From Herminiimonas sp. KBW02 (GTDB lineage: Bacteria > Pseudomonadota > Gammaproteobacteria > Burkholderiales > Burkholderiaceae_D), in contig NZ_QAJP01000002.1 of assembly GCF_003852535.1 (NCBI RefSeq), positions 62,001-126,000 on the forward strand: a DNA stretch of 64,000 nt, given 5' to 3'. The notes beneath the pieces are model-generated. The model made no database searches. It was not told the DNA's origin and saw only the letters and a program-made list of their open reading frames with translations. The first letter of the stretch is position 1. Every line of letters begins with the position of its first letter. Shown one piece after another: positions 1,165-58,218 of this stretch. The position numbers were made by a program, and so were the translations under genes.

Positions 1165-1959
1165 ATGGCTGCCGCCCTGCACTTATCCCGATCCTTTGCC
1201 CTACCTGTCGCCGCCCCCGAGCATCCGTCCACACTGCCGGATGCCGTCTGGCGCGCTGATCAGATGGGTTCTTATCGTTCAACCCCGGTTCCATCCGGCT
1301 ACCAGGCACTGGATCGCGAATTACCAAACGGCGGCTGGCCACCTTCTGTATTGATTGAATTACTCATGGCACAGCCCGGCATAGGCGAGCTGCGTTTGCT
1401 CGCACCTGCGCTGGCACGTCTCACGCAAGCCGACAAAACCGTAATCCTGCTGGGGCCACCACATATACCCTACCCAGCCGCACTGGAAGATCTGGGCATA
1501 CGTTTAAAGAAACTGATCCTGATCGAAACCGACAAGCCTGCTGATCGTATCTGGGCCATAGAACAAACCTTGAAAAGCGCCAGCTTCGGTGCGCTGCTGT
1601 GCTGGTTGCCGCAAGCCCGCACTGATCATTTACGTCGCCTGCAACTGGCAGCGGCTGGTGGTGAAGGCCTGAGCTTTGTCTTTCGCCCGCTCAATACGCA
1701 AGACACTTCGTCACCCGCACCGCTGCGCATCGCCTGCCAGCCAGCCGCCGCCGGACGCATGTCGGTTGAACTCATCAAACGGCGTGGCCCCATACACGCC
1801 GCCCCCTTAATCCTGCCGCTGGCCATACCTGAGATCCTGCGGCAGCCACTCACTCATCGCATGTCAGGCAAAACCTTTTCTGATACTTCTACCTATGCTG
1901 TGGATCGCCCTACACTTGCCGCAACTGCCGCTAGACGCCGCGCTACGTTGCCGGCTTAG
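1165..1959 (+). CDS. imuA: ImuA, SOS-induced translesion synthesis accessory protein (cassette copy)
   Basis: A 264-residue RecA/SulA-related protein, the first gene of the SOS mutasome cassette. ImuA works with the inactive Y-family protein ImuB and the polymerase DnaE2 to copy past DNA lesions. Family landmarks are LPNGGWPPSVLIELLMAQPG near residue 50, the GALLCWLPQAR strand and the RMSVELIKRRGP segment near the end. The ATG at 1165 sits just behind the ribosome site TTTGGAGGT. The 3' end overlaps imuB by 65 nt in another frame, which suggests coupled translation. A paralogue with its own LexA box lies at 57457. Confidence 0.93.
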   Translation: MAAALHLSRSFALPVAAPEHPSTLPDAVWRADQMGSYRSTPVPSGYQALDRELPNGGWPPSVLIELLMAQPGIGELRLLAPALARLTQADKTVILLGPPHIPYPAALEDLGIRLKKLILIETDKPADRIWAIEQTLKSASFGALLCWLPQARTDHLRRLQLAAAGGEGLSFVFRPLNTQDTSSPAPLRIACQPAAAGRMSVELIKRRGPIHAAPLILPLAIPEILRQPLTHRMSGKTFSDTSTYAVDRPTLAATAARRRATLPA

Positions 1960-3409
1960 GCATACCTCCTGCGAGCCGGATCCATATGACCATACCCCTA
2001 TCGTCATATGCGAACGGAACATCGTAGGCTGGTGCAATCAACTGGCGGATGATGCAGGCATACGCGCGGGCAGTTCGGAAGCCAGTGCACGCGCGCTGGC
2101 GGCTGACCTGCAATCATTGCTGCGCGATCCTGCGCAGGAAACAAAAGCATTGGAAGAAGCCGCGCTGTGGAGTTTGCACTTCACCCCGCATGTCGTCTTG
2201 CGTCCTGACGGATTGCTGCTGGAAGTCGGTGCCAGCCTGCGCCTGTTCGGCGGCCACCAACGCATCGCCACACAATTACTCAGCGGCTTGCTGGAACTCG
2301 GCCTGCATGCACGCCTGGCCAGTGCCGCTACCGCAGGCGGAGCATGGTTACGGGCGCAAACGGAAGGCATCACACAAGTGTTTGCACATGATGGCGACAT
2401 CAGCGCTGCGCTCGATCCCCTTCCCTTGCATGTGCTGGATCATGCGCAAGCGCATCTGGATACGCTGGATGGCATAGGCTGTCACTGCCTCGCTGACTTG
2501 CGTCAATTGCCACGAGCCGGTGTCGCGCGTCGCTTCGGCCAGGCGCTGCTGAGTGAACTGGATCGTGCTTACGGCACGGAAGCAGAGGCACACCAGTGGT
2601 TTGAAGCACCCGCCACCTTCGACGTCAAACTGGAGTTGCCGGCGCGTGTCGAACATACCGAAGCACTGCTGTTTGCCGCACGTCGTTTGCTGCTGCAACT
2701 GACAGGATGGCTCAGTGCACGTCATGCTGCAGTCGCCGGTATCACACTCCACCTGCATCATGAATCGACACGGCAGCGCGATCATCGCAGCACCGCCGTC
2801 AGCATTCAGCTCGGTATGCCGAGTCGCGACATCGATCATCTGGCGCTCTTGTTACGCGAACGCATGGGGCAACTCGACTTGATTGCACCCGTTATCGAGA
2901 TCAGTCTGAAGGCAGATCAGATCACCGCGCAGGCAGCACCGAATACCGAGTTATTCCCGACCCCGACCTCGGATGCAGAAAATACCGGACGTCTGGTCGA
3001 ACGCCTGCAAAGCCGACTCGGCAATGACGCGGTGCGCCAGCTCTCGGTATTTGCCGATCACAGGCCGGAAAAAAGTGTCATGAGCAAGGTACTCAGCCAT
3101 CAACAAGCTGTACGACGCAATGCACGCAATGAAGTTGCTGACACACACCCCCATTGCGTGCGACCGACCTGGCTGCTGCCGCAACCGCTAGCCTTGCACA
3201 CGCATCAACACAAGCCTTTTTACCAAAGTCCGCTGACCTTGCTGACCGGGCCGGAACGCATAGAATCCGGCTGGTGGGATGATGGACTCGCCACGCGCGA
3301 TTACTTCATTGCACAAAACGAACAGCATGTATTGCTCTGGATCTTCCGCTTGCGCACCACCAGCAGTACGCACGGTTCAGGCTGGTTCCTGCATGGCTTA
3401 TTCGCCTGA
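1895..3409 (+). CDS. imuB: ImuB, catalytically inactive Y-family polymerase-like mutasome hub
   Basis: A 504-residue Y-family polymerase homologue. It starts MLWIALHLPQLPLDAALR, where active Y-family enzymes carry an acidic metal-binding motif near the N-terminus; the missing acidic residues fit the known lack of catalysis in ImuB. The LDGIGCHCLADLRQLPRAGV segment (about 191-210) is the helix-hairpin-helix-like thumb. QLSVF at residues 382-386 resembles the beta-clamp binding pentapeptide (QLSLF type), and the C-terminus ends WFLHGLFA as usual for the family. The start lies inside imuA, and dnaE2 begins 18 nt after the stop. Confidence 0.93.
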   Translation: MLWIALHLPQLPLDAALRCRLRHTSCEPDPYDHTPIVICERNIVGWCNQLADDAGIRAGSSEASARALAADLQSLLRDPAQETKALEEAALWSLHFTPHVVLRPDGLLLEVGASLRLFGGHQRIATQLLSGLLELGLHARLASAATAGGAWLRAQTEGITQVFAHDGDISAALDPLPLHVLDHAQAHLDTLDGIGCHCLADLRQLPRAGVARRFGQALLSELDRAYGTEAEAHQWFEAPATFDVKLELPARVEHTEALLFAARRLLLQLTGWLSARHAAVAGITLHLHHESTRQRDHRSTAVSIQLGMPSRDIDHLALLLRERMGQLDLIAPVIEISLKADQITAQAAPNTELFPTPTSDAENTGRLVERLQSRLGNDAVRQLSVFADHRPEKSVMSKVLSHQQAVRRNARNEVADTHPHCVRPTWLLPQPLALHTHQHKPFYQSPLTLLTGPERIESGWWDDGLATRDYFIAQNEQHVLLWIFRLRTTSSTHGSGWFLHGLFA

Positions 3410-3427: not shown

Positions 3428-6400
3428 ATGCTGCCCAGCCTGCCCTCCTATGCGGAATTGCATTGCCGCTCCAACTTCAGCTTCCTGCATGGCGCTTCGC
3501 ATCCGGAAGAACTGGTAGAACGCTCCTGCGACCTCGGTTACAGCAGCCTCGCCATTACCGATGAATGCTCGCTGGCTGGTGTGGTGCGCGCACATGTGGA
3601 AGCAAAGAAGCGCGAACTGCACCTGATCATAGGCAGCGAAATCAAACTGGCTTGCGGCACGAAGCTGCTCTTCCTCGCACGCAACAAAACAGGCTATGGC
3701 AATTTATCCGAACTGATCACGCTGGCGCGACGCCGTGCCGCGAAAGGCAGCTACACCCTCTATCGCAGCGACCTCGATGCACAGCCTGATGACAGCGCGG
3801 CGCATCTGATGCATTTACCGGATTGCCTCGCCATCCTGCTGCCGCAACGTTCTGTCAGTCTTGACGAACTAAGCGAGCAGGCAGCATGGCTCAAACAGAC
3901 ATTCGGCAAGCGTGCATGGATCGCTGTTGAGTTGCTGCACTGGTCAGGTGATGAGCACTGGCTGACACAACTCAGGCACGTGGCGGCACAACAATCGCTG
4001 TCATTGGTGGCCATGGGCGATGTGCTCATGCATGTGCGTTCACGCAAACCTTTGCAAGACACGCTGACGGCAGTGCGCCTAGGCAAATCGATAGCCGAAT
4101 GCGGAATGGCGCTGCAGCCGAATGCCGAACAGCATCTGCGTTCGCGTTTACGGCTGTCGCAGGTTTATCCGGCAGCCTTGCTGGAAGAAACACTCAAGTT
4201 GGCTGCGCTCTGTACTTTTTCGCTGGAAGAACTCCGCTATCAATATCCGAAAGAGATCGTCCCGGATGGTGTAACGATGGCAGCCTATCTGCGCCGTCTG
4301 ACGTATGAAGGTGCCACGCAAAGACGCTACAAAAATGGCCTTCCTGAGCATCTACGCACACAGATAGAACATGAACTCAGCCTGATCCACGAACTGCGTT
4401 ATGAGCCTTACTTCCTCACGGTGTACGACATCGTCAAGTTTGCCCGCAGCCGGGACATCCTGTGCCAGGGACGCGGCTCGGCGGCCAACTCCATCGTCTG
4501 CTATTGCCTCGGCATCACTGAAGTCGATCCGTCGCGCAGCAGCGTCCTGTTTGAACGTTTCATTTCACGTGAACGCAATGAACCGCCGGACATTGATGTC
4601 GATTTCGAGCACCAGCGACGTGAAGAAGTCATGCAATACATTTACGGCAAATACGGCCGTCATCGTGCCGCATTAACCGCAGCCCTGATCACCTATCGCC
4701 CACGTTCGGCGATGAAAGATGTCGGCAAGGCGCTGGGCCTGGACTTTGAACAGGTCAATCGCCTGTCGCAATCGCATAAATGGTGGGACGGCAAACAAAT
4801 CGGCGCAGATCGCCTGCAGGAAAACGGTTTTGATCCGGCCTCACCTATCGTACAGAAACTGGTGGAGCTGACGCACACCCTGATCGGTTTTCCGCGTCAT
4901 CTGTCACAACATACCGGTGGCTTTGTCATCTCACACGATAGTCTGGCGCGCCTGGTACCGATCGAAAATGCCGCAATGAAAGACCGCAACGTCATTGAAT
5001 GGGACAAGGACGATCTGGATGCCCTGGGTTTGCTCAAAGTCGATGTACTCGCGCTCGGCATGCTGTCTGCGATACAGCGTGCGCTGAAGATGATAGGTCA
5101 ACGGCGCGGTACTGACTTCGAACTACAGGACATCCATGATGACGACGCTGCCACCTACGAAATGATCTGCGCCGCCGACACCATAGGCGTATTCCAGATC
5201 GAATCGCGCGCGCAAATGTCGATGCTGCCGCGCCTGCGCCCGACCTGTTACTACGACCTGGTGATACAGGTCGCCATCGTCAGGCCGGGGCCTATACAAG
5301 GCGGCATGGTGCATCCTTACCTGAAGAACCGGCGCATGAATAAGGACGACATTATTTACCCCGGTGATGAAATAGAAGAAGCGCTATCCCGTACTTGTGG
5401 CGTTCCCATCTTCCAGGAACAGGTCATGCAAATCGCGGTACTTGCGGCTGGATACTCTGCCGGTGAAGCGGATGATTTGCGGCGCTCGATGGCCGCATGG
5501 AAACGCAAAGGCAATCTGGAAAAACACGAAAAAAAACTCAAGGACGGACTCGCGGCAAATGGCTACGACCCGACTTTCGCCGACCGCCTGTTCGAACAAA
5601 TCAAAGGCTTCGGTGAATACGGCTTCCCCGAATCGCATGCCGCCAGTTTCGCGCTGCTGGTCTATGTCTCGGCATGGATCAAGTGCCATGAACCGGCGGC
5701 TTTCCTCGCGGCCCTGCTGAACTCACAACCGATGGGATTTTATTCTGCGTCGCAACTGGTGCAGGATGCGAAGCGCCATGGCGTACCGGTACGTCCGGTC
5801 GACATCATGATCAGCGCAACAGATTCAACGATGGAAGACATACACGCGCCCTATCCGGCAGTACGCCTTGGCTTGCATATGGTCAAAGGCTTATCACTGG
5901 CCGCAGCCGGGCGCATAGTCGCAGCGCGTGCGCGTCGCAGCTTTAACAATATCGATGATCTGGCACGTCGCGCCGCACTGGATCAGCATGAGCTCAGTGC
6001 ACTGGCACGTGCCAACGCACTGCTCGCGCTGAGCGGTCATCGTCGCCAGGCCAAATGGGAAGTCGCCGGCATGCTGCCGCCGCCAGCCTTGTTGCGCGAT
6101 GCACCGATAGTGGAAGCGCCGTTAATCCTGCCGCCAGCCAGCGAAGGCCAGGAAATCATCGCCGACTATGCCAGCACCGGCCTGACCCTGCAGCGCCATC
6201 CGCTCGCATTGCTGCGACCACGACTCAAGCAAATGAATTTGTCGACGGCACTGGAAATGAAAGGCTTTGCCAACCGCAAGCTGGCGCGCACCACCGGCAT
6301 CGTCACGATGCGACAACGGCCACCGACCGCCAAAGGCACCATGTTCGTCACACTGGAAGATGAAACCGGCATCACCAACGTCATCATCTGGCCCGATCTG

Positions 6401-6559
6401 GTCGACAAACAGCGCAAGGAAATCCTGCATGCGCAATTAATGACCGTCTACGGCATCTGGCAATCGAAAGACGATGTACGTCATCTGGTCGCCAAACGCA
6501 TCGTCGATCATTCCGAACTACTCGGCGAACTCTCTATCTCCAGTCGGGACTTCCAGTAA
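3428..6559 (+). CDS. dnaE2: DnaE2 (ImuC), error-prone DNA polymerase III alpha subunit
   Basis: A 1043-residue C-family polymerase, the catalytic member of the ImuA-ImuB-DnaE2 mutasome. The N-terminal PHP domain opens with ELHCRSNFSFLHGASHPEEL. The palm motif PPDIDVDF (386-393) carries the metal-binding aspartates D390 and D392, with a third likely in LLKVDVLALGML near residue 539. A helix-hairpin-helix region and a C-terminal OB fold (TGIVTMRQRPPTAKGTMFVT) follow. The length is typical for DnaE2 and shorter than replicative DnaE. Third gene of the SOS operon, convergent with the anti-sigma gene. Confidence 0.95.
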   Translation: MLPSLPSYAELHCRSNFSFLHGASHPEELVERSCDLGYSSLAITDECSLAGVVRAHVEAKKRELHLIIGSEIKLACGTKLLFLARNKTGYGNLSELITLARRRAAKGSYTLYRSDLDAQPDDSAAHLMHLPDCLAILLPQRSVSLDELSEQAAWLKQTFGKRAWIAVELLHWSGDEHWLTQLRHVAAQQSLSLVAMGDVLMHVRSRKPLQDTLTAVRLGKSIAECGMALQPNAEQHLRSRLRLSQVYPAALLEETLKLAALCTFSLEELRYQYPKEIVPDGVTMAAYLRRLTYEGATQRRYKNGLPEHLRTQIEHELSLIHELRYEPYFLTVYDIVKFARSRDILCQGRGSAANSIVCYCLGITEVDPSRSSVLFERFISRERNEPPDIDVDFEHQRREEVMQYIYGKYGRHRAALTAALITYRPRSAMKDVGKALGLDFEQVNRLSQSHKWWDGKQIGADRLQENGFDPASPIVQKLVELTHTLIGFPRHLSQHTGGFVISHDSLARLVPIENAAMKDRNVIEWDKDDLDALGLLKVDVLALGMLSAIQRALKMIGQRRGTDFELQDIHDDDAATYEMICAADTIGVFQIESRAQMSMLPRLRPTCYYDLVIQVAIVRPGPIQGGMVHPYLKNRRMNKDDIIYPGDEIEEALSRTCGVPIFQEQVMQIAVLAAGYSAGEADDLRRSMAAWKRKGNLEKHEKKLKDGLAANGYDPTFADRLFEQIKGFGEYGFPESHAASFALLVYVSAWIKCHEPAAFLAALLNSQPMGFYSASQLVQDAKRHGVPVRPVDIMISATDSTMEDIHAPYPAVRLGLHMVKGLSLAAAGRIVAARARRSFNNIDDLARRAALDQHELSALARANALLALSGHRRQAKWEVAGMLPPPALLRDAPIVEAPLILPPASEGQEIIADYASTGLTLQRHPLALLRPRLKQMNLSTALEMKGFANRKLARTTGIVTMRQRPPTAKGTMFVTLEDETGITNVIIWPDLVDKQRKEILHAQLMTVYGIWQSKDDVRHLVAKRIVDHSELLGELSISSRDFQ

Positions 6560-11130: not shown

Positions 11131-11601
11131 TTACCCCGCCTTTATATCGTCCAGCAGATGCGGTCCCGCTCCCTGCTCTGCCAATTGATCGCCCGGATTG
11201 CGCAAGCCGCAGTGCTCTATCGAGAGGCAACCGCAACCTATGCACTGATCCAACTGATCACGCAACTGCATCATCTTCGCTATGCGCTCATCCAGCTCAG
11301 CGCGCCAGGTCGCAGACAATCGTGCCCAATCCTTGATAGTCGGCGTCCGGCCTTGCGGCAAGCTGGCGAGCGCTGTAGCGATCGAAGCCAGCGGAATGCC
11401 AGAGCGCTGCGCTACCTTGATCACCGCCACCCGACGCAACACATCACGCGCATAACGCCGCTGGTTACCTGCATTGCGACGACTGCTGATTAAGCCTTTC
11501 GCCTCATAGAAATGCACGGCCGACACAGCCACGCCACTGCGCTCGGCGACTTCTCCGACTGTCAGTTCTGCGTGAATACTCCCATCCTGGATTTTTTTCA
11601 T
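11131..11601 (-). CDS. soxR: SoxR, redox-sensing MerR-family regulator
   Basis: A 156-residue MerR-family regulator. The N-terminal winged helix ([20 protein letters not shown]) is followed by a dimerisation helix and a [2Fe-2S] cluster-binding set Cys120, Cys123, Cys125 and Cys131 (CX2CXCX5C), the SoxR signature. Oxidation by redox-cycling compounds or superoxide switches SoxR from idle to activating. No soxS is present here, as is normal outside enterics. A SoxR-type dyad lies at 11615-11632 in the divergent promoter region; its promoter geometry points toward the flavin reductase. Confidence 0.93.
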
Positions 11602-11610
11602 GGCGACCTC

Positions 11611-11641
11611 TTGACCTCAAGTTAAGTTGAGGTTTTACACT
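11611..11641 (+). promoter_or_regulatory. SoxR-type promoter facing the flavin reductase
   Basis: The dyad CCTCAAGTTAAGTTGAGG (11615-11632) matches the classical SoxR site CCTCAAGTTAACTTGAGG except for one base in the centre. It lies between a -35 element TTGACC (11611-11616) and a -10 element TACACT (11636-11641) with a 19-bp spacer, the overlong spacing that SoxR/MerR regulators remodel. The promoter reads rightward. It also lies just upstream of soxR, so autoregulation is possible. Confidence 0.85.
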
Positions 11642-11736
11642 AAGCCGTCATCGTTGCGCAAGCCCCATGCACTGCCAGGCATCGCTTTATGCCTGCATCA
11701 GCAGGTTGAACAAGGGATGTAATTATTTCTTTTTAA

Positions 11737-11752
11737 CTGTATGTATATACAG
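11737..11752 (+). promoter_or_regulatory. LexA (SOS) box upstream of the flavin reductase
   Basis: CTGTATGTATATACAG fits CTGT-N8-ACAG. As at the two imuA loci, TATATT follows directly (11753-11758). The 17 nt AACAGCATTTGGAGGTT (11795-11811) are identical to those before the second imuA (57438-57454). The box ends 61 nt before the start codon at 11814. Confidence 0.9.
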
Positions 11753-11813
11753 TATATTATCAGCGCGCCACTTGTCCGACGCATCGTCTAAAACAACAGC
11801 ATTTGGAGGTTCA

Positions 11814-12431
11814 ATGTCAGCACTACTACCAAGCATAGCCACCAGGGAATTAAGCACGTCTAGCGAAAAACTCAATCTCGTCCTGATTTACGGCAGCATC
11901 CGCGAAGGACGGTACTGCGACATCGTGGCGAACTGGGCCAGCACGCAAGTCCGCAAGCATCAGGAATTCGCATTGGAAATCGTCGATCCGGCCAAGCTGT
12001 CCTTGCAGCCACAGAGCGATCAGAACCCGGATCTGCATGTGCTCAGGACATGCCTGGAACGCGCCGATGCCTTTATCGTGGTCACGCCTGAATACAACCA
12101 TGGCTACCCTGCACCACTCAAACACCTGATCGATTCTGTATCGCGGGAATGGCAAGCCAAACCACTGGCTTTTGTTTCTTATGGCGGTGTGTCTGGCGGC
12201 TTGCGTGCGGTCGAACAATTACGACAAGTGTTTACAGAGCTGCATGTCGCCACCATGCGCAACAGCGTCAGCTTTGCCAATGCGTGGGAGCAGTTCGACG
12301 ACCAGGGTCGTTTATACGCGGCGACGCGTGCGGAAAAGTCGATGGAGATGATGCTGGCGCAACTGCAATGGTGGGCAGTCGCGCTGAAGGATGCGCGGCG
12401 CACGATACCTTACGGCATCGTCGCCACCTGA
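11814..12431 (+). CDS. NADPH-dependent FMN reductase, predicted SOS- and SoxR-controlled
   Basis: A 205-residue flavodoxin-fold reductase. LVLIYGSIREGRYCDIVANW near the N-terminus is the FMN phosphate-binding loop. VVTPEYNHGYPAPLKHLID and FVSYGGVSGGLRAVEQLR are the conserved TPEYN and GG loops of the NADPH-dependent FMN reductase family, which includes quinone and azo reductases. The start at 11814 follows TTTGGAGGT by three bases; an upstream in-frame ATG at 11667 would add 49 residues translated through the LexA box. The substrate is unknown; the promoters suggest a role in redox or genotoxic stress. Confidence 0.85.
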   Translation: MSALLPSIATRELSTSSEKLNLVLIYGSIREGRYCDIVANWASTQVRKHQEFALEIVDPAKLSLQPQSDQNPDLHVLRTCLERADAFIVVTPEYNHGYPAPLKHLIDSVSREWQAKPLAFVSYGGVSGGLRAVEQLRQVFTELHVATMRNSVSFANAWEQFDDQGRLYAATRAEKSMEMMLAQLQWWAVALKDARRTIPYGIVAT

Positions 12432-12475: not shown

Positions 12476-13345
12476 TTACTTCTTGCCCGGCTGGACGATC
12501 ACGGTACAAGTCATGCCCGCCACCAGTTGATGATCTTTATCCAGGTCGTCTATACGTATGCGCACCGGCACCCGTTGCGCCAGGCGTACCCAGTTAAAGG
12601 TCGGATTGATATCGGCCAGTAATTCACGGCCGGTGCTGGCTTCACGATCAGTAATGCCACGGGAAACACTTTCGATATGACCTTGCAAGGTCGCACCGCC
12701 ACTCATCAGACGTATTTCCACCTTGTCGTTAACCTTCAGGTAAGGCAATTTGGTTTCTTCAAAATAGCCACTGACATAGTAGGAATTGCTGTCGATAACG
12801 GCCAGTTGCGCGACGCCAGCCGTTGCAAAATCACCTGCATATACATGCAAATTGGTGACATAGCCATCGACCGGCGCACGCACATCAGTACGCTCCAGAT
12901 TCAATTGCGCAGTATCACGTGCAGCGGCGGCTGCCTGGTACTTGGCTCCGGCTATCGATGACAGCGAAGCCGCGGCTTCACGATTTTCGCTGGTGACGAT
13001 GGAAGAATCCAGTCCGCTGCGACGTGCTGCTTCCTTGCTACGCATCCCCTTCTCTGCCTGCTGCGCGGCCAGCGTCGCTTCCGCTTGCGTCAACACGTGT
13101 GCATAACGGCTCTTGTCAATAGTGAACAGGATATCGCCCTTGTGCACAAACTGATTGTCCTTCACCTCGACCCTGGTCACGATGCCAGAGACATCAGGTG
13201 CAATGTGGATGATGTTGGCCTTGACGCGACCGTCACGCGTCCATGGCGAATACATATTGTCATCCCACAAATACTTGCCAAACAAAATGGCCAGCAGCAG
13301 GAAGACGCCTGTGATGATGTAGCGGAGATAAGCGGAGGTACGCAT
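12476..13345 (-). CDS. HlyD-family membrane fusion protein of an aromatic/drug efflux pump (AaeA/EmrA-like)
   Basis: A 289-residue periplasmic adaptor. It has an N-terminal membrane anchor (ITGVFLLLAILFGKYLW), the lipoyl-like half motif VSGIVTRVEVKDNQFVHKGD near residue 50, an alpha-helical hairpin, then RTDVRAPVDGYVTNLHVYAG and a beta barrel. The ATG at 13345 places the anchor directly at the N-terminus; a longer frame exists. Last gene of the leftward efflux operon, 11 nt after the DUF1656 gene. It should link the FUSC inner-membrane protein to the NodT outer-membrane channel. Confidence 0.9.
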   Translation of the reverse strand: MRTSAYLRYIITGVFLLLAILFGKYLWDDNMYSPWTRDGRVKANIIHIAPDVSGIVTRVEVKDNQFVHKGDILFTIDKSRYAHVLTQAEATLAAQQAEKGMRSKEAARRSGLDSSIVTSENREAAASLSSIAGAKYQAAAAARDTAQLNLERTDVRAPVDGYVTNLHVYAGDFATAGVAQLAVIDSNSYYVSGYFEETKLPYLKVNDKVEIRLMSGGATLQGHIESVSRGITDREASTGRELLADINPTFNWVRLAQRVPVRIRIDDLDKDHQLVAGMTCTVIVQPGKK

Positions 13346-13356
13346 AGCGATGATCC

Positions 13357-13554
13357 CTAGTAAATAACAAGCGCGAGTGCGCCGAATATGCAAACCAGCA
13401 GGCACAAGCGGAATAGCGAGCGATGCCAGACATGTTTATAAATGCCGAAGTGGCCGCACAGCCAGTCCACACCAATGTGGATGACGACTGCCAGCAGGAA
13501 GACCAGCAGCAGCGATGGCGCCAATACGCCAAAAATGGAAATCTCACGCGGCAT
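13357..13554 (-). CDS. DUF1656 small inner-membrane protein (AaeX-like)
   Basis: A 65-residue protein with two membrane spans (LLLVFLLAVVIHIGVDWL and LCLLVCIFGALALVIY), the DUF1656 pattern. Such proteins are encoded between FUSC and HlyD subunits in aromatic acid efflux operons such as aaeXAB; their exact role is not known. The start overlaps the end of the FUSC gene by 11 nt. Confidence 0.88.
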   Translation of the reverse strand: MPREISIFGVLAPSLLLVFLLAVVIHIGVDWLCGHFGIYKHVWHRSLFRLCLLVCIFGALALVIY

Positions 13555-15766
13555 GATGGTTTGCTCCGTTCGTCAATGCGGCTTCGGTAGAAAATTCGTT
13601 CAGTGACTGATCCAGCAAGGATGCGTGGATCAGGTGCAAGTCGGTCAGCGCACGCTGCAATTGCGCCGCTTCGCTTGCCTGCAATGACTCTTTATTCAGC
13701 AGCAGGCTGCGCAACATCACACCTGCGGCCTGGGTCTCTGCCAGTGCGCGTGCATGCTGCGGCGCTTGCGGCTTGCGGAAGTAATCCGCCAGGCTGGCCA
13801 CGCATTTCTCTTTCGCGACACGCGCCGGATGGCCTGGTTTCAGGCGCGCACTCAAATCACGTAAATCGATAATGGCATGACCGATTTCGAGCAAGGTAAT
13901 CGCCTGGTTCAGGATACGACGCGTGGCAGCGTCTGCCGTACCGCGTATGCTCATGCTCAATTGGTTCAGCAAGTCACGTACCCGGCTTTCAAAATGATGA
14001 CGCAGGTTGGCCGCATCGCTGATGCACAGGCGCAGCGCCTCCCCCCACAAGGAATCGGCGATATGGCGACGCGAACCCTGTTTATGTTCAGGCAGAATTA
14101 ATGCAAACATCAGACCGGCGAGGATCAGACCAAGGACTTGCGCCATGCTGTCATTGATGAAGTTGAGCACATCGAAGCGCATCAGGTTTTCCGGCGCGAT
14201 CATTTGCGCAAACATCAGGTTGAAGCCGATGCCGATACCCGCCACCTTGCGCCAGGTACTGATGTACGCACCCACCAGCAAGAACGGCAACATCGCCAAT
14301 ACCAGCATCATGTAACCTTCGACGTGATTCAGCATGAAGAAGGCACAAAAGAATGCAAACGGCGTCGCACTGGCAAAGCCCAGCGTGGTCTGGCGTATCA
14401 AGTCGCCAGGATCAGGCGACGATGCGGCGAGCCCGCAAAAAATCACAGTGATGATGACCGCGCCACCCGCACTCGGCCAGTTCAGCCCATGCCATGCCAG
14501 CGTCAGCAGCAACAAGGCCGCAGCACTGCGCAAACCTGCCGCCAGCGCAATCATGGGTGGCGTCTTCGCGCTGTAGCTGAGGATCTGCCCGGCATTTTTC
14601 GCAGGCTGCTCCGACAGGCGTTTAGGCAGATCGTGATAAATCACTACCAGCTGATAAAACTCATCACTGAAGCGTTGCATCAGCTCCAGCGCCGTATCCA
14701 GGTTCAGCCTTTGCACATCGTTATATTCATGACGCTGAAAATTCTCACGCGCCTCGACTATCATCTGCGGCAAGACTGCCTGCAAGGCGTTCAGTTTTTC
14801 GCGGGTAACGCCGACTTCGACTGCGGTACGCGCCGGGATATTCGTCACCAGCAAGGCATTTGAGAACGCATCGTATAAAGGCAACATCACATCCGGCACC
14901 AGCATATCGCCGCGATTGCGCAGGCGCTGCATCAATTGATGCAAGGTATGGAAGGTGGTCAGGCCGACCATCGCTGCCGCATTGAACGCGTGCAATTGCT
15001 GGTTGCGGGTACGGATATCGCCAGCTTCAAAAAAAGCCGCGGCGCGACCGGATTCCAGCGCGGCCACTTCGGTGGCAAATTGCAGGTGCAAACGTTCCAG
15101 CTGCTCCGGGCTTAAGCGCCCTTGCATCGCATCGCTGCATAACTGCGCAATATTGCGATACAGGCGACGCACAGCCTGCACCAATTGTTCACTCTGGTGC
15201 CTGGGAAATAATGCATCGTTCACCAGTGCCGCGCACAGAATACCCAAAGAAATTTCCGTCACACGCGACACCGCAAGATTAAACACATGCAACGGCGCAT
15301 CGATAGCGGGCACAGCGATCATGCAGGCGGTATATCCGGCCAGCACAAAACCATAGGAACGCGCATTGCGCATCAGGGCAGAACCAGCGGTACACAAGGC
15401 AACCCAGAATGCGAGTGCGATGAAGAGCAACATTGCCTGTTGCGGGAACAAGGCAATCAGGGTCAGCGCAGCGGCACAACCGACCAGCGTGCCTAACAAG
15501 CGATAAATACTTTTTTCCAGCGCCATGCCGCTACTTGGCAAGGCCACGATGAATACCGTCATCATCGCACTGCGTGGCGAATCAAAGCCGAGACGGAACG
15601 CGATCCATAAAGCGAGGAAAGCCGCCAGCAAGGTTTTCAGCACGAAGACCCAACGCTGACCTTCCGTCTCCAGCCAGTCCTGCGCAATCACACGCGCACG
15701 GCGGTGCCATGCAGCAGGTGGTGCCGGCGTCGTGGCTGGTGCAGTGACTTCGGCGGCGCTATTCAT
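13544..15766 (-). CDS. FUSC-family aromatic acid/drug efflux inner-membrane protein (AaeB-like)
   Basis: A 740-residue protein with two blocks of membrane spans, about residues 40-190 (VLKTLLAAFLALWIAFRLG and LLFIALAFWVALCTAG) and 400-540 (GLRSAAALLLLTLAWHGL and GGAVIITVIFCGLAASS), each followed by a long cytoplasmic helical domain. This is the FUSC/YccS architecture seen in AaeB, which exports aromatic carboxylic acids and related compounds. It is coupled by an ATGA overlap to the upstream marR gene. The substrate is not shown by the sequence. Confidence 0.9.
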   Translation of the reverse strand: MNSAAEVTAPATTPAPPAAWHRRARVIAQDWLETEGQRWVFVLKTLLAAFLALWIAFRLGFDSPRSAMMTVFIVALPSSGMALEKSIYRLLGTLVGCAAALTLIALFPQQAMLLFIALAFWVALCTAGSALMRNARSYGFVLAGYTACMIAVPAIDAPLHVFNLAVSRVTEISLGILCAALVNDALFPRHQSEQLVQAVRRLYRNIAQLCSDAMQGRLSPEQLERLHLQFATEVAALESGRAAAFFEAGDIRTRNQQLHAFNAAAMVGLTTFHTLHQLMQRLRNRGDMLVPDVMLPLYDAFSNALLVTNIPARTAVEVGVTREKLNALQAVLPQMIVEARENFQRHEYNDVQRLNLDTALELMQRFSDEFYQLVVIYHDLPKRLSEQPAKNAGQILSYSAKTPPMIALAAGLRSAAALLLLTLAWHGLNWPSAGGAVIITVIFCGLAASSPDPGDLIRQTTLGFASATPFAFFCAFFMLNHVEGYMMLVLAMLPFLLVGAYISTWRKVAGIGIGFNLMFAQMIAPENLMRFDVLNFINDSMAQVLGLILAGLMFALILPEHKQGSRRHIADSLWGEALRLCISDAANLRHHFESRVRDLLNQLSMSIRGTADAATRRILNQAITLLEIGHAIIDLRDLSARLKPGHPARVAKEKCVASLADYFRKPQAPQHARALAETQAAGVMLRSLLLNKESLQASEAAQLQRALTDLHLIHASLLDQSLNEFSTEAALTNGANHHAA

Positions 15767-57380: not shown

Positions 57381-57396
57381 CTGTATGTTTATACAG
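57381..57396 (+). promoter_or_regulatory. LexA (SOS) box of the second imuA
   Basis: CTGTATGTTTATACAG fits CTGT-N8-ACAG and is followed by TATATT (57397-57402). TTTGGAGGT (57445-57453) precedes the ATG at 57457, 60 nt from the box. Confidence 0.92.
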
Positions 57397-57456: not shown

Positions 57457-58218
57457 ATGGCCGCAGTCGCAAGCAATTTCAGTTTCCCAGCAGTTTCCTT
57501 CCCAGACGCCGCATGGACTGCAGAGTCGGCACAAACCGCTCGTGCACATCCACAGCCATCCGCTTATCGTGCGCTGGATCTGGAATTGCCAAATGGCGGC
57601 TGGCCTGCTTCCGTGCTGATCGAATTGCTGCTGGCCCAGCCTGATATCGGTGAACTGCGCCTGCTGGCACCTACCCTGACACGCCTGACGCAAGAAGGCA
57701 AAACCGTGATTTTGCTGGCGCCGGCGCATATTTCCGCCGCTTTGTCCGACCTAGGTCTGGATAAAAACCACCTGATCCTGATCGAAGCCGACAAGCCCAT
57801 GGATCGCATCTGGGCCGTAGAACAGGCAGTCAAGAACGTACATTTTGGCGCCTTATTGTGCTGGTTGCCGGAAGCGCGTCCTGACCATCTGCGCCGCCTG
57901 CAACTGATGGCGGCCACCAACGATGGCCTGACTTTCGTATTCCGTCCGCTGGAAGCGCAAAACCAGTCTTCGCCGGCCCCTTTGCGCATGCTGTGCCAAC
58001 CCGCCGCTGATGGCCGCATGTCGGTTGAAATCATCAAGCGACGCGGCCCTGTGCATTGCAAACCTATCGTGTTGCCCTTATCGGTTCCGGCCATCATCCA
58101 CCGGCCACGCGTGGCACGCTCACTGAGTTCGCCTGCATTCGAAATGCCGTCCTACACGATTGCACATTCCGCACTGGCAGCCACCGCCGCCCGACATCGT
58201 GCAGCATTACCGGTTTAA
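57457..58218 (+). CDS. Second ImuA paralogue (orphan, SOS-controlled)
   Basis: A 253-residue ImuA-type protein, clearly homologous over its whole length to the cassette copy at 1165 (shared LPNGGWP, IGELRLLAP, GALLCWLP, DHLRRLQL, RMSVE-IKRRGP and LAATAAR blocks). It differs most at the N-terminus and the C-terminal linker. There is no imuB or dnaE2 after it. Start chosen at 57457 behind TTTGGAGGT. It may substitute for or compete with ImuA in the mutasome (inference). Confidence 0.9.
   Translation: MAAVASNFSFPAVSFPDAAWTAESAQTARAHPQPSAYRALDLELPNGGWPASVLIELLLAQPDIGELRLLAPTLTRLTQEGKTVILLAPAHISAALSDLGLDKNHLILIEADKPMDRIWAVEQAVKNVHFGALLCWLPEARPDHLRRLQLMAATNDGLTFVFRPLEAQNQSSPAPLRMLCQPAADGRMSVEIIKRRGPVHCKPIVLPLSVPAIIHRPRVARSLSSPAFEMPSYTIAHSALAATAARHRAALPV

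Follow-up and report, generated by a model that had tools for sequence, protein, structure and literature searches.

How did one reductase gene come to stand behind the candidate sites of two stress regulators, SoxR for redox stress and LexA for DNA damage? The locus lies in a 64,000-nucleotide stretch of Herminiimonas sp. KBW02 (contig NZ_QAJP01000002.1, positions 62,001 to 126,000), hereafter the window. The initial annotation of this DNA described a SoxR dyad in a 19-bp spacer pointing at a flavin reductase gene and, about 120 bp further on, a LexA box with its own TATATT, and it proposed that redox and DNA-damage regulators feed one enzyme. The features of the region are listed below.

11131–11601, − strand: soxR, encoding a redox-sensing activator of the MerR family (TIGR01950, 236.7 bits; cut-off 116.9)
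11602–11813: intergenic region, spanning exactly from the soxR start (11601, − strand) to the reductase ATG (11814, + strand)
11611–11641, + strand: SoxR-type promoter reading toward the reductase (−35 TTGACC, 11611–11616; dyad CCTCAAGTTAAGTTGAGG, 11615–11632; −10 TACACT, 11636–11641; 19-bp spacer)
11642–11728: poorly conserved spacer (edges approximate) that a SoxR-driven transcript would cross
11729–11831, + strand: block resembling an imuA leader (edges approximate), located by BLAST and by a box-free profile
11737–11752, + strand: candidate LexA box CTGTATGTATATACAG, one mismatch from CTGTATATATATACAG
11753–11758, + strand: −10 hexamer TATATT abutting the LexA box, the same in 17 imuA leaders
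11805–11809, + strand: ribosome-binding site GGAGG inside CAGCATTTGGAGGTT, a string that recurs before imuA2
11814–12431, + strand: FMN reductase family gene, 205 aa (PF03358, 126.7 bits against a gathering threshold of 24)

The upstream promoter was found as described. Its 18-bp dyad, close to CCTCAAGTTAACTTGAGG, agrees with the E. coli consensus at 17 of 18 positions and sits within the over-long 19-bp spacer between TTGACC and TACACT, facing the reductase. It is the sole match at three or fewer mismatches in the window (expected 0.01) and the only place in the 3.64-Mb genome at two or fewer; one more appears at three. That additional dyad (L122, G000:C10:231774-231791; G000 denotes the window genome) lies between a MerR-like regulator gene and a methyltransferase-like gene, both named by eye. 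It was rejected as a second SoxR site, because it adjoins another MerR-like regulator and is therefore probably that regulator's own site. The SoxR translation encoded beside the reductase-facing dyad contains the [2Fe-2S] cysteine motif.

The reductase missed the NCBIfam equivalog cut-offs for ArsH (47.6 against 292.25 bits), SsuE (22.8 against 164.05) and MsuE (32.6 against 212.5). The only solved sequence that it reached at E ≤ 1e-10 was yeast YLR011w (PDB 1t0i; E 1.8e-13, best stretch residues 80–143), which we take to be the quinone reductase Lot6. The enzyme is likely to be a two-electron reductase of quinones, nitro-compounds or similar substrates, and probably serves detoxification. 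Convergent to the reductase gene, at 12476–15766, the window encodes an AaeA-like adaptor that scored 261.6 bits, short of the NCBIfam cut-off of 400, together with a FUSC-family permease (PF04632, 578 bits).

To place the SoxR promoter in context, we scanned one genome per species for relatives of the reductase, which yielded at least 520 confirmed relatives, and analysed the best 80 of these. Within this set, which includes Pseudomonas, Rhizobiales, Lysobacter, Microbulbifer and Acidobacteria, 78 of 80 carry, in the 500 bp upstream, a dyad that scores 13/18 or more, and 66 of 80 have a divergent gene with the SoxR cysteine motif by a simple pattern test. These sequence comparisons indicate that SoxR control of the reductase gene is the ordinary, widespread state.

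The downstream element was also borne out: the LexA box lies 122 bp past the SoxR dyad and is near-perfect, with TATATT directly behind it. Only two sites in the window match CTGTATATATATACAG at one mismatch (expected 0.00), the reductase box and one before an imuA gene. The genome encodes a typical LexA (TIGR00498, 242 bits) and RecA, and boxes of the form CTGT-N8-ACAG stand upstream of recA and lexA as well as of both imuA genes of the window. This half-site pattern is not clearly enriched across the genome (38 sites versus 33 for the reversed control), and the LexA site is credible on account of its core, its −10 and the leader that it shares with imuA, rather than its half-sites. A promoter scan did not pick TATATT with a good −35; an overlapping match uses a different pair of hexamers. 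Scanning for terminators returned none between the two promoters, the single hit falling within the reductase gene.

Two further LexA-type sites lie elsewhere in this genome. The palindrome CTGTATAAAAATACAG (L117/L126, G000:C11:730698-730713), identical to the first box of lexA, is positioned 111 nt before flhD, the FlhD product having been read from sequence. Nine of the 13 genus genomes have CTGT-N8-ACAG at −111 to −116 relative to flhD, and the remaining four read ACCG instead of ACAG; the flagellar master regulator may be under SOS control. At the second locus (L115, G000:C11:85731-85746), the first base of CTGTACAAATAAACAG precedes by 33 nt the start of a SocA/Panacea antitoxin-domain gene (PF13274, 71 bits; 118.7 bits against an NCBIfam SocA cut-off of 190, thus below it), perhaps an SOS-linked toxin-antitoxin locus.

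What the initial annotation overlooked is that the same type of leader stands before two imuA genes in the window, and that the LexA half appears to be a derived addition, imuA-leader-like, that would supply the start codon of the enzyme. The imuA genes and their neighbours are as follows.

1090–1105, + strand: LexA box of imuA1, at the head of the imuA-imuB-dnaE2 cassette
1165–1959, + strand: imuA1, first gene of the mutasome cassette (NF033429, 229.5 bits)
1895–3409: imuB frame, start not settled (PF00817 IMS, 27.8 bits)
3428–6559: dnaE2, error-prone polymerase (NF004225, 1516 bits)
57381–57396, + strand: LexA box of imuA2
57457–58218, + strand: imuA2, a standalone second imuA (NF033429, 200.1 bits)

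Both window imuA genes carry the LexA box with the abutting TATATT. Across the genus, imuA is present in 13 of 13 genomes in a total of 17 copies, and every copy has TATATT behind a LexA box that scores 15/18 or more. According to the accessible text of PMC3323433, imuA-imuB-dnaE2 is persistently LexA-regulated where present and belongs to the SOS core of alpha- and beta-Proteobacteria. The imuA2 gene has no imuB directly behind it and precedes a response-regulator-like gene in four genomes (G000, G005, G002 and G001); in G001, the sole imuA at E ≤ 1e-6 is this standalone copy.

A BLAST search of the reductase leader against its own genome returned three hits: itself, the imuA2 leader (72% over 94 bp, E 2e-5) and imuA1 (30 bp, E 0.003). 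In the converse search, the imuA2 leader was compared with 13 genomes, and matches that took in everything from the box to the start codon occurred only at imuA genes and at four reductase genes, those of G000, G005, G002 and G001; the remaining matches were restricted to the box or to short stretches. The shared block comprises a −35 region, the LexA box, the −10, a 5′ leader, a ribosome site, the start codon and perhaps the first few codons. In three of the four species, CAGCATTTGGAGGTT itself stands before the start codon of both the reductase and imuA2, and variants of it occur in most other imuA leaders. Because the box is palindromic and a weak promoter-like match on the reverse strand overlaps it, the box might be supposed to serve soxR on the opposite strand; this is scarcely credible, as the block faces the reductase and carries that gene's ribosome site and start codon.

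A more serious alternative is independent origin: the reductase gene would have acquired a LexA box and a good ribosome site on its own, and the likeness to imuA would reflect shared function only. The box, the −10 and the ribosome site are indeed functional motifs. We therefore built a profile from the 17 imuA leaders after removal of the −35, box and −10, and searched it against 0.62 Mb of other loci together with the four reductase leaders. The profile nonetheless detected all four reductase leaders (G001, E 1.4e-8; G002, 1.3e-5; G005, 7e-4; G000, 0.0086), with the best chance hit at E = 10. It also found the reductase leader of H. contaminans (L004), which lies on the same contig as G005 and is not independent of it. 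In pairwise comparisons, the four reductase leaders scored 45–56, versus a maximum of 34 among 365 unrelated gene leaders. Spacing points the same way: the box lies 59–69 nt from the ATG in the four reductases, resembling the 55–61 nt of 15 of the 17 imuA leaders (the other two, 37 and 41).

In a stricter test, confined to the leader without box, ribosome site or start, G001 and G005 scored 35 and 37, above all 372 controls (maximum 28). On the side of independent origin, G000 and G002 scored 18 and 19, at chance level, with 166 and 95 of the 372 null leaders as high. Both null sets (365 and 372 leaders) had been cleared of imuA leaders and of the H. contaminans reductase leader. Convergence of motifs alone was rejected outright for G001 and G005 on their leader-only scores. 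For G000 and G002, its rejection relies on their orthology to these two and on the comparison in which ribosome site and start were retained. Since the window leader falls within the leader-only controls, its strict match rests on orthology with G005 and G001, and the reading of this particular leader as imuA-derived leans on the same relationship. Taken over all four species, these comparisons render independent origin very unlikely and make capture from an imuA leader a well-supported proposal. As to which imuA copy was the source, two leader trees disagree, one of them with low inner support; in the window genome, the stretch that matches the reductase leader is longer for the imuA2 leader than for that of imuA1.

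The position of the start codon offers a separate view of the same event. Residues 1–15 of the window reductase are an N-terminal addition: codon 16 (11859–11861, TCT) lies where most relatives have their start ATG. Starts were compared in 78 relatives (the 80 less L045, which has no motif, and less one with no ATG that could be chosen), taking an ATG at least 18 nt past the dyad, with preference for a ribosome-site match of at least 4/6, and the farthest upstream. By this rule, 67 of 78 relatives start 10 residues before a YGS-type motif; the other 11 start 7, 9, 9, 9, 11, 12, 12, 17, 18, 21 and 25 residues before it, H. contaminans alone at 25. The four LexA-bearing species begin MSALLP or MSAQLP, 15 residues upstream of the usual start. 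Codon 16 is still ATG in G001, but G005 and G002 have ACG there and the window TCT; the old start has thus been lost in three of four species. In the 50 codons after the captured ATG, the window, G005 and G002 have no further in-frame ATG, and the predicted N-terminus of the enzyme is MSALLPSIATREL, with or without Met. The reductase frame could be extended upstream to an ATG at 11667, but it is closed there in G005, and we discarded the extension as a chance feature. The first few reductase codons may, weakly, be imuA-derived too, because imuA proteins begin MAALASALP or similar.

Genus members without the LexA box show the other arrangement. The reductase gene was detected at E ≤ 1e-30 in 8 of 13 genus genomes; the LexA box is present in G000, G005, G002 and G001 and absent in G003, G007, G008 and G009, whose genomes are the same as those of L005–L008 in the set of relatives. 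G003 and G007 use the usual start and G009 starts one residue later. The outgroup G008 (L007) apparently starts earlier, 17 or 20 residues before the motif, and as it has no LexA box, an early start need not involve LexA. The four LexA-bearing species split from the rest with a support of 94 in a 13-tip tree built from SoxR plus reductase. Only one of the 80 relatives (the best 80 of at least 520), H. contaminans L004, has a LexA box before the reductase. Because the box is general for imuA (all 17 copies, in line with the accessible text of PMC3323433) and rare for the reductase, we infer that the reductase gained the LexA block. The comparisons thus portray the LexA half as an unusual addition with an identifiable source.

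Alignment of the four species gives a graded picture of conservation. Invariant columns number 30 of 31 in the SoxR promoter, 13 of 89 in the spacer, 24 of 28 in the LexA block, 18 of 49 in the leader, 14 of 17 in the ribosome site plus start and 21 of 51 in the next 17 codons; for the reductase body, the figure over its first 300 bp is 59%. Both predicted switches are kept while the intervening DNA drifts, which agrees with the proposal of the initial annotation that two regulators may feed one enzyme. These counts bear on the possibility that the LexA box is a decaying relic, or is bound without consequence, and that only SoxR matters in practice, as its widespread control of such genes might suggest. 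We consider that improbable: the LexA block retains far more of its columns than either the spacer or the leader, and the reductase box is among the two best matches in the window.

On these grounds, we put at roughly three in four the probability that a SoxR-activated FMN reductase gene was additionally brought under LexA by capture of an SOS promoter. In the ancestor of the four Herminiimonas-group species, a short imuA control piece (from the −35 region through LexA box, −10, leader and ribosome site to the start codon, perhaps extending a few codons further) would have entered the DNA that separates the reductase from its old SoxR promoter and joined the old start in frame, leaving two promoters in series before the gene. 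Redox-cycling compounds would oxidise SoxR and fire the upstream promoter; the downstream promoter would become free once DNA damage had led, through RecA, to the loss of LexA. Since the old start has disappeared from three of the four species, the imuA-derived ribosome site and start codon would serve the translation of both transcripts. OR logic is the likely outcome, with either stress raising the enzyme.

The order of the promoters complicates this scheme. In the four species, the LexA operator sits about 66–88 bp beyond the inferred start of the SoxR transcript, and since that transcript must cross it, some gating by LexA is possible; LexA may partly block that transcript. Taken to its extreme, the operator would act as a roadblock, and full expression would need redox stress together with LexA release, an AND-like logic. 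The spacing would allow this, but a −10 directly follows the box, just as it does in imuA, which speaks for a promoter rather than a bare obstacle, and we regard such strict gating as unlikely. Returning to capture of an SOS promoter, its most detailed version is a two-stress switch: a mutasome SOS block spliced in frame onto a SoxR target, with the old start then lost in most descendants; a redox message that uses the SOS-derived start and must pass the LexA operator; and serial promoters that join both signals, with LexA able to gate SoxR. Our judgement on this complete picture is evenly divided.

The origin of this regulatory link can be read from living relatives, which preserve the before-state, the type of donor and the after-state, the last two of them in the window. 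At this locus one could test how bacterial stress regulons become joined, and whether OR or AND logic results when a repressor operator lies downstream of an activator-driven promoter. A reductase under such control would presumably be useful where compounds both cycle electrons and damage DNA, and one enzyme may thereby answer two alarms. Among the titles and abstract openings listed by our literature search, which covered few subscription journals, none described joint SoxR and LexA control of a reductase or an imuA promoter before another gene.

Several known systems resemble parts of this arrangement. Divergent pairing of soxR with its target gene is reportedly found outside the enterics in Agrobacterium. 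Rewiring of bacterial regulation by transfer or capture of promoter DNA is a general theme, and here too a gene would have changed its control by gaining a ready-made promoter; unlike promoter capture in general, the piece brings its own leader with a start codon, makes the protein longer and does not displace the earlier promoter. At the level of the enzyme, YLR011w is a distant sequence relative of the bacterial protein. The closest counterpart of the SoxR half is mfsA of Stenotrophomonas maltophilia, a SoxR-controlled transporter gene divergent from soxR (PMC4411124). As far as the accessible text of that report goes, both systems have a divergent soxR and a SoxR box between −35 and −10, near the soxR start; the present locus differs in that its target is not a transporter and in the extra DNA and new start codon added downstream, and that text mentions no LexA promoter for mfsA. 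With the imuA-imuB-dnaE2 cassette, the locus shares the LexA box, the −10 next to it, the ribosome site and the start region and, by way of its G001 and G005 orthologues, the leader, but here the block precedes a redox enzyme instead of a translesion-synthesis gene and lies behind a SoxR promoter.
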